Of a stretch of DNA of 64,000 nt, positions 33,253 through 34,836 are shown one piece after another. The position numbers were made by a program, and so were the translations under genes. Numbering within the stretch: position 1 is the stretch's first letter; each line of letters begins with the position of its first letter. A model generated the notes under the pieces. It did not search any database. It was not told where the DNA came from and saw only the letters and a list, made by a program, of their open reading frames with translations. The stretch is from Luteimonas sp. Lineage in GTDB: Bacteria; Pseudomonadota; Gammaproteobacteria; Xanthomonadales; Xanthomonadaceae. The stretch is taken from contig JANPZU010000001.1 in assembly GCA_024707405.1 (NCBI GenBank), positions 1 to 64,000 of the forward strand, in the 5' to 3' direction.

Positions 33253-34836
33253 TCAGAAGCAACATCGGTGAACGCGCCGCCGCGCGCTTCGCAGGGCAAA
33301 CCACGGATCAAGACACCAGGGATCAGCGGATGCAATCCAGATCCCGCATACATGCCGCAGATCAGCTGATGCGATCCGCCCCCCCATGTAAGGACGCAAC
33401 ACATCCGGCACGCTGATCGAACCATCGGCGTTCTGGTAGTTCTCCATCACCGCGATCAATGCGCGACCCACGGCCACGCCCGAGCCATTGAGCGTATGCA
33501 CCGGCTCGGGCTTGCCGGTCTCCGTATTGCGCCAGCGCGCCTGCATGCGACGCGCCTGGAAGTCGCCACAGTTCGAGACCGATGAAATCTCGCGATAGGT
33601 CTGCTGCGACGGCAGCCAGACTTCCAGGTCGTAGGTCTTGCGTGCCGAGAATCCCATGTCGCCGCTGCACAGCAGCACCTTGCGATACGGCAAACCCAGT
33701 TTCTCGAGCACGGCCTCGGCGCTGGCGGTCATGCGTTCGTGTTCGGCATCGCTGTCGGCGGGAGTACTGATGGCCACCAACTCCACCTTTTCGAACTGGT
33801 GCTGGCGGATCATGCCGCGCACGTCGCGGCCGCCGCTGCCGGCTTCGGAACGGAAGCACAGCGAATGCGCGGTCATGCGCAGCGGCAGGCGCTCGGCATC
33901 TACGATTTCGTCGCGGACGATGTTGATCAGCGGAACTTCTGCTGTCGGAACTAAGTAATACTGCTTCAGACTATTCTGATATTGATGCAATGACGCTCTG
34001 TATTTTTCGAACCATGGCGACAGAAGTTCAGGAACATTTACTTCCTTCTGCTTCACGTCCTTCAGAGTTGAATCAATTCTTTCAAGCAGCTCTCGTCCAT
34101 TTTTTGCAACCTGCATTGCCAATGTAGGTTCACCGAGAACAGGCTCACCAAAATCGGGATCCTGTTGATCGTATGTGGTGAACAGATCATCCTCGAACTT
34201 CGGCAACTGTCCCGTCCCGCGCATCGAATCGGCATTGACCAGCAACGGGACATTTGTTTCCTCGTACCCATGCTCGCCGGTATGCAGGTCGAGCATGAAC
34301 TGCGCGAGTGCACGATGCAGCCGCGCCAGTTGCCCACGCAGCACTGTGAACCGGGAGCCGGAGAGCTTCGCCCCCGCTTCGCCGTCCAGCCAGCCATGGC
34401 GCGCACCAAGCTCAACGTGATCCTTCACTTCGAAGTCGAAGCTGCGTGGCGTGCCCCAGCGCTTCTGCTCGACGTTGTCGTTCTCGTCCGCACCCTTGGG
34501 CACCGACGGATCCGGCAGGTTGGGCACCCCGAGCGCGATCGCTTCGATCTCGCCACGGATGGCGTCCAGCCGCGCTTCGCTGGCCTTGAGTTCGTCGCCG
34601 AAACCGGCCACTTCCGCCAGCAACGCCGACACGTCCTCGCCCTTCGCCTTGGCCTGGCCGATGGCCTTGCTGCGGGTGTTGCGCAGGTTCTGCAGTTCCT
34701 GCGTGCGCACCTGGATCTGCTTGCGCTCGGCTTCCAGCGATTCGAGTCGTTCAACCGGCAGGTCGACGCCGCGCAGGTCGCGCAGGCGTGCGGCGGTATC
34801 GGCGAGGTGCTGGCGGAGGAAGCTGGGATCGAGCAT
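33253..34836 (-). CDS. serS: Seryl-tRNA synthetase with internal insertion and probable 3' frameshift
   Basis: This class II synthetase charges tRNA-Ser and tRNA-Sec with serine. The N-terminal coiled coil ([11 protein letters not shown]... to about 100), TAEVPL, the motif 2 [25 protein letters not shown] and the motif 3 [19 protein letters not shown] are all present. Two oddities. Between LPKFEDDLF and [10 protein letters not shown] there are about 80 residues where E. coli has about 20, encoded by GC-poor DNA. And the C-terminus, normally YMGG..RI(S/G) stop, runs on for 40 unrelated residues because a C7 run at 33379-33385 appears one base short; with one more base the protein ends YMGGADRIS at 33362 (491 residues). 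Confidence 0.93.
33955..34178 (-). other. Low-GC insert within serS
   Basis: A hand count over 33961-34140 gives about 43% GC, against roughly two thirds in the flanking coding DNA. Codons shift to A/T-ending ones (AAA, GAA, TTA, ACA). The reading frame stays open. The encoded segment ([11 protein letters not shown]... to ...QNSLKQYY) is charged and mostly helix-like. Conserved SerS residues right at its edge (YLVPTAEVP) also use AT-rich codons, so the foreign tract extends slightly into the core. Confidence 0.7.

Follow-up and report, generated by a model that had tools for sequence, protein, structure and literature searches.

The serS gene and its loop

The window, positions 1 to 64,000 of contig JANPZU010000001.1 (assembly GCA_024707405.1) of Luteimonas sp., encodes on its minus strand seryl-tRNA synthetase (SerRS), the product of serS. 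Within this gene the short hairpin loop that precedes the serine-binding strand is replaced by 74 codons of AT-rich DNA, and long loops, most of them unrelated to one another, stand at the same site in other species. The features concerned are given below in the reading direction of the gene; GC3 is the GC content at third codon positions.

33253..34836, minus strand: serS, seryl-tRNA synthetase, 527 residues as read, from MLDP to the stop; assigned by its Pfam domains
34180..34209, minus strand: left flank of the loop, ten codons with a host-like GC3 of 0.80
33958..34179, minus strand: AT-rich loop of 74 codons in place of the DLF/YLIP hairpin loop; defined by composition, coordinates and the 9-residue loop of relatives
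33928..33957, minus strand: right edge of the imported tract, the first ten codons after the loop, with a GC3 of 0.40

The product has the domains of a bacterial class IIa SerRS, matching Pfam families Seryl_tRNA_N (PF02403, expect value (E) 1.4e-26) and tRNA-synt_2b (PF00587, 2.1e-41). TAEV lies at residue 298, FRSEAG at 328, a 17-residue segment at 336 and a 12-residue segment at 447; thus, the TAE strand and the segments that we take to be motif 2 and motif 3 are present. The gene is the single serS match in its own genome, a 3.22 Mb assembly that is 92.9% complete, and it is not a second, divergent serS of the SerRS2 type. As the sole serS detected in an assembly of that completeness, this SerRS presumably charges tRNA(Ser). 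The loop itself, between FEDDLF and the ten-residue serine-binding segment, is 222 nucleotides (nt) long, in frame and without a stop. Inteins are more than 130 residues long and carry characteristic splice residues; the loop, with 74 residues, T first and Y last, is not an intein.

Close to the 3' terminus of serS, seven consecutive G stand on the coding strand at 33379-33385 (within 33360-33400). After the GG, the serS frame reads beyond the usual end into 41 further residues, and another frame stops at ...GGADRIS, much like relatives. This may reflect slippage, a sequencing error or a real change.

Composition of the loop

The loop has a GC content of 0.43 and a GC3 of 0.39, compared with 0.65 and 0.76 in the remaining open reading frame (ORF). 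Its rarity was judged in a 404 kb sample of its own genome, consisting of the window plus 17 stretches, each of 20 kb; this sample covers roughly one eighth of the assembly. Segments of 222 nt as low in GC make up 0.017% of 400,022 (z -5.9) and come from this loop and two other places (L144 and L158), with a third (L147) within 0.02. The L158 place lies mostly between ORFs, and those at L144 and L147 overlap only short mechanically called ORFs or ORF ends. Among the 232 mechanically called genes of at least 200 residues in the sample, serS has the lowest GC over any 74 codons, 0.42; the runner-up, at 0.46, lies in a gene with an overall GC of 0.55. When the drop in GC3 is considered alone, the serS loop ranks third of the 232, and the two genes above it have a GC of 0.62 in the 74-codon segment.

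The change in composition is sharp at the left edge of the loop. To its right, AT-rich codons run on into the conserved serine-binding segment, as had been proposed for TAEVPL in the original prediction. That prediction placed a long, in-frame insert, of about 43% GC over 33961-34140, at 33955-34178, within 3 bases of the limits given here, in an otherwise GC-rich gene, and took it to be either a tract of foreign serS or an insert with its edges. The tract is indeed foreign in composition, in frame and provided with a right edge, whereas the left flank is host-like. What the prediction treated as a single odd gene is one of many, since the same site is struck repeatedly in other species.

Long loops at the same site in relatives

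Relatives were searched with a short-loop SerRS taken from within the genus as the query; a long loop breaks the match to it into two parts, and the split genes were then read. This approach is blind to inserts of roughly 10-25 residues and to genes cut before the loop, and partial matches that lack the loop cannot be judged. The possibility that close relatives all share the insert at normal GC does not hold, as 24 of the 29 same-genus relatives that were read have a loop of 9 residues; the other five have loops of 18, 30, 48, 58 and 58. Compared with the 9-residue relatives, the net gain in the window's SerRS is about 65 residues. (The 48-residue loop, L033, is on a contig of a Luteimonas metagenome-assembled genome, G006, which is counted among the 29 same-genus relatives and lies outside the 395 family genomes.)

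Of the 395 family genomes, 385 have a match, split in 27 of them, and reading yields 26 long loops of 29-76 residues in 10 genera. In genus g40, eight of the 10 matched species have long loops, whose pairwise identity is 7-32%, while their flanks are 87-96% identical among the seven intact genes and 56-59% identical for the broken eighth. At the level of the order, 143 of 151 genomes have a match. All seven matched genomes of family f11 (two others had none) carry an insert of 76-77 residues at normal host GC (L005, L006, L007, L089-L092), which is an established SerRS domain; in family f12, one of 24 genomes has a 78-residue AT-rich loop (L087). In the class, 136 of 143 genomes match; besides the window's own genome, two matches are split, neither through a long loop, and at least two cover only part of the gene and lack the loop region. 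Across the phylum, 282 of 299 genomes match. Outside Gammaproteobacteria, 15 of 195 matched genomes, presumably mostly Alphaproteobacteria, give split matches, and 14 of these have loops of 47-92 residues, in 6 families. Across all taxa the long loops range from 29 to 92 residues. The site is specific: among 102 aligned SerRS, a scan that left out seven loci, no insertion of more than 23 residues was found anywhere else in the protein.

In the insert-bearing relatives for which both matches are listed, these are halves of one gene, except in G320, where they lie on opposite strands of one contig and a 32-residue loop is readable in the first half. Several candidates failed on reading. G423, a possible 27th long loop of the family, has its matches on two contigs; one piece has a 9-residue loop, and the second begins only past the loop, at the edge of its contig. 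The split matches of G626, G836 and G536 have loops of 9, 7 and 10 residues, and in G477 the frame is broken and the two matches are separated by a gap of about 17 bases. L032, found as a related locus, and a Halomonas record with a long-running match both have short loops.

The short-loop relatives L008-L031 differ in the serine-binding strand itself, which reads either YLISTSEI(S/A)L or YLIPTAEVPL, and L015-L017 (ISTSEI) are nested in a clade of the other strand type, as if the strand had been exchanged too. Acidic loops of 31-32 residues and of a single type (RIYEDEY...TDEETGE...PEPAY) occur in genera g44, g77 and g40 (L081-L085, L088).

Diversity and replacement of the loops

By BLASTP at E <0.01, 47 loops fall into 31 clusters, one link of which (L003 to f11) rests on a match of 23 residues. 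The window's loop clusters with L035 (33% identity) and, via L035, with L036; L045 is a weak fourth member. For this comparison duplicate loci were collapsed; L004 (from G032), whose start the pattern used did not parse, is absent from the 47-loop set and from the 34-loop set of the gene tree described below, and L164 (from G916), with a loop of 51 residues by hand count that the loop pattern missed, is absent from the 47. In the 40 loops that remain when the seven f11 rows are excluded, a few of which are related to one another, mean GC is 0.517 versus 0.657 in the gene and mean GC3 0.534 versus 0.841 (Wilcoxon p 2e-8), and the loop is lower by more than 0.08 in 34 of the 40. The loops are mostly neutral to acidic, with a mean net charge of -2.7.

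Pairs of close relatives reveal what happens to the old loop. The serS genes of G206 and G154 are 97% identical, differing at 32 of 1251 flank bases, with the 62 bases to the left and the 17 to the right of the loop identical. Where G154 has QTEVGESRR (9 residues), G206 has an AT-rich loop of 46 residues: a clean replacement. Likewise, G104 and G151 have a flank identity of about 94% and loops of 59 and 13 residues, respectively.

The flanks also carry a possible trace of exchange. Near the loop, third positions have diverged further than elsewhere in the gene, and this holds more strongly for 26 genes with long loops (-0.094) than for 53 short-loop controls (-0.031; p 0.013, with L086, L078 and L088 omitted from the test); the excess is found on the left (p 0.001). 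A quick gene tree built from the flanks of 89 genes, 34 of them with long loops, requires a minimum of 20 gains or losses.

Direct observations thus cover the precise position, the foreign composition, the recurrence, the diversity of sequence and, in near-identical pairs, the fact that the old loop is replaced and not interrupted. With little doubt, they mark this SerRS loop as a hot spot of loop replacement.

Selection on the loops

The f11 inserts have ratios of nonsynonymous to synonymous substitution (dN/dS) of 0.16-0.32 in five pairs, compared with 0.09-0.20 in the rest of the gene. A different picture is given by the loop pair from G041 and G032, whose dN/dS is 1.14 versus 0.095 for the rest (Fisher p 1e-6, from hand-rounded counts). 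For L001 and L035, dN is 0.74 in the loop versus 0.13. In deeper loop pairs, silent sites have reached saturation or come close to it. Purifying selection on the f11 inserts and on the acidic loops of g44 (considered below) indicates that certain inserts are retained for a reason; the G041/G032 pair is either relaxed or positively selected.

Searches for a source

No other copy of the window's loop is present in its own genome, and the 395 family genomes contain no match to it outside SerS at E <0.01. For ten loops compared with Pfam there was no hit at curated level, and for the same number compared with PHROG the best was E 0.0014, between loop L059 and a family of unknown function. PDB sequences gave nothing better than 0.089 for the window's loop. 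SerRS encoded in viral contigs, where the loop is readable by pattern, have loops of 6-18 residues. One SerRS of a 415-kb viral contig (L121, 2001-3515) is about 70 residues longer than the others and has a different C-terminal end.

No description of variable bacterial SerRS loops was found in the literature searched, which largely excludes subscription papers. The available parts of PMC5992433, PMC7916415 and PMC9437257 contain none, and those of PMC3726837 report a 1-residue SerRS deletion in Borrelia at 231-264 with no account of variable loops.

Comparison with known systems

The position of the loop is that of insertion II in the cytosolic SerRS of higher eukaryotes, which likewise lies between the DELY/DLF strand and YLI(A/P)TSE. 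A PDB sequence match to human residues 241-314, with flanks aligned by eye, places the window's loop at about human residues 249-266, which hold insertion II (G254-N261). Human insertion II lies near the active site and, in the portion of the report available, its role in aminoacylation is described as negligible (PMC10817482), which would allow a loop swap here without killing the enzyme. Insertion II is 8 residues long and lineage-wide, whereas the bacterial loops have 29-92 residues, are mostly of foreign composition and differ in nearly every species.

Synthetases of the same order carry other in-frame inserts. Signature indels of Xanthomonadales include 18 residues in GlnRS and 13 in ValRS, the latter with a very similar counterpart in several Alphaproteobacteria; these are kept across all or most of the order, while the SerRS loops vary. 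The same study used SerRS as one of 28 marker proteins for its tree, and its available text notes no SerRS indel (PMC3568101).

A third comparison is with albomycin, a natural SerRS inhibitor to which variant SerRS can give immunity, as reported for the resistant SerRS2 (AbmK) of Streptomyces (PMC9032320, as far as the accessible text goes). AbmK resembles the present case, as a variant SerRS that escapes an inhibitor, only if the loops serve evasion. It is an additional, divergent whole gene that accompanies a housekeeping copy, whereas in the window the altered gene is the sole serS copy found, changed at one loop. Nothing links albomycin to this loop.

How the loops may have arisen and persisted

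Recurrent swapping suggests that something keeps selecting change at this site of SerRS. In the explanation favoured here, to which as a whole we give a probability of about 0.4, the short hairpin loop before the serine-binding TAE strand would be replaced by a longer, AT-rich loop through homologous recombination with a different serS allele, in which the conserved DLF and YLIPT(S/A)EV flanks serve as the sites of exchange. Replacement recurs at the same position, both within Lysobacterales and in further classes of the phylum. The altered surface beside the active site may then be a poorer target for a SerRS-directed toxin, a phage or competitor protein, or an inhibitor, while aminoacylation continues. 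The parts of this explanation differ in strength. Exchange by recombination through the serS flanks is probable, and donors bearing serS are suggested by the flank divergence, which fits part of the cases. Evasion of a SerRS-directed agent as the reason for retention is a candidate that we hold at somewhat below even odds. More tentative still is the proposal that a widespread agent, as yet undescribed, drives the repeated exchange, with Lysobacterales and the other classes affected independently of one another.

Several findings weigh against this explanation. We know of no agent that reads this loop, and none was found here. No donor was found either: viral contigs contain no match for the window's loop, and for the five loops tried against phages or plasmids (only the window's loop against both) there was none better than E 0.08. 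On the right side of the loop, the excess divergence of the flank is not significant (p 0.28). Loops L003, L054, L163 and L172 are GC-rich, and loop GC correlates with the GC of the host gene (r 0.55), unlike what one uniform donor pool would give; this correlation is as expected for ageing of the loops or for varied donors. The f11 insert, universal among matched genomes and constrained, is easier to reconcile with a stable function than with an arms race. Constraint is also seen in the acidic 32-residue loops of g44, with dN/dS of 0.15-0.37 in four pairs (0.06-0.08 in the rest), and in the pair L035/L036, whose loop dN/dS is 0.33, near saturation. Finally, the negligible role of insertion II at this position means that the site may simply tolerate inserts.

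This last point leads to a neutral alternative, in which the hairpin is the sole harmless site of the enzyme and foreign recombined DNA persists there for a while. Apart from insertion II, the lack of relationship among most loops and the dN/dS of 1.14 in one related pair are consistent with it. It must be set against the 20 or more changes on the 89-gene tree, the prevalence of long loops in g40 and the purifying selection in the f11 and acidic g44 loops; moreover, bacterial genomes have a deletion bias that should remove useless loops. On balance, neutral tolerance is somewhat less likely than the favoured account but a close rival to it, as is the binding of a partner.

In this third account, which is conceivable if rather unlikely, the inserts act individually as small functional domains, each binding a partner (tRNA(Ser), a protein or a metabolite) and tuning SerRS in the manner of the eukaryotic insertions. 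The f11 inserts, present in every matched genome and constrained, fit such a role, and the AT-rich L087 of f12 is possibly related to them (E 0.012-0.036). However, a partner common to many species fits poorly with 31 dissimilar clusters, and the net negative charge of the loops speaks against a general role in tRNA binding.

The original prediction had also raised the possibility of a coding mobile insert. In Rickettsia, palindromic coding repeats are mobile coding elements inserted in frame, and the frame and foreign composition of the window's loop would suit an element of this kind. Such repeats exist in many copies, whereas the loop has no second copy in its genome and no match outside SerS in the family; the ten loops searched lack curated Pfam hits and have at best the weak PHROG match given above, lengths and sequences differ, and the old loop is replaced, not interrupted. 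A mobile element is therefore highly improbable. An assembly chimera, which the sharp left edge might suggest, can be dismissed almost entirely, because unrelated long loops stand in frame at the identical site in many independent genomes. These include the single-contig G104 and the two-contig G401 and G415, each with a listed completeness of 100%.

Implications

Essential synthetases are commonly treated as slowly evolving, vertically inherited markers. Here, a surface loop of SerRS beside the active site differs between close species by wholesale replacement, and whatever the cause, serS near this loop needs care as a phylogenetic marker. If the replacement is neutral, the loop is a natural graft site in a synthetase. 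If selection maintains it, a weapon or inhibitor directed at SerRS awaits discovery, and the natural variants are ready to be used in finding such an agent. Exchange driven by an agent of this kind, if true, would make SerRS, an essential single-copy enzyme, a setting for molecular conflict that has gone unrecognised in proteobacteria.
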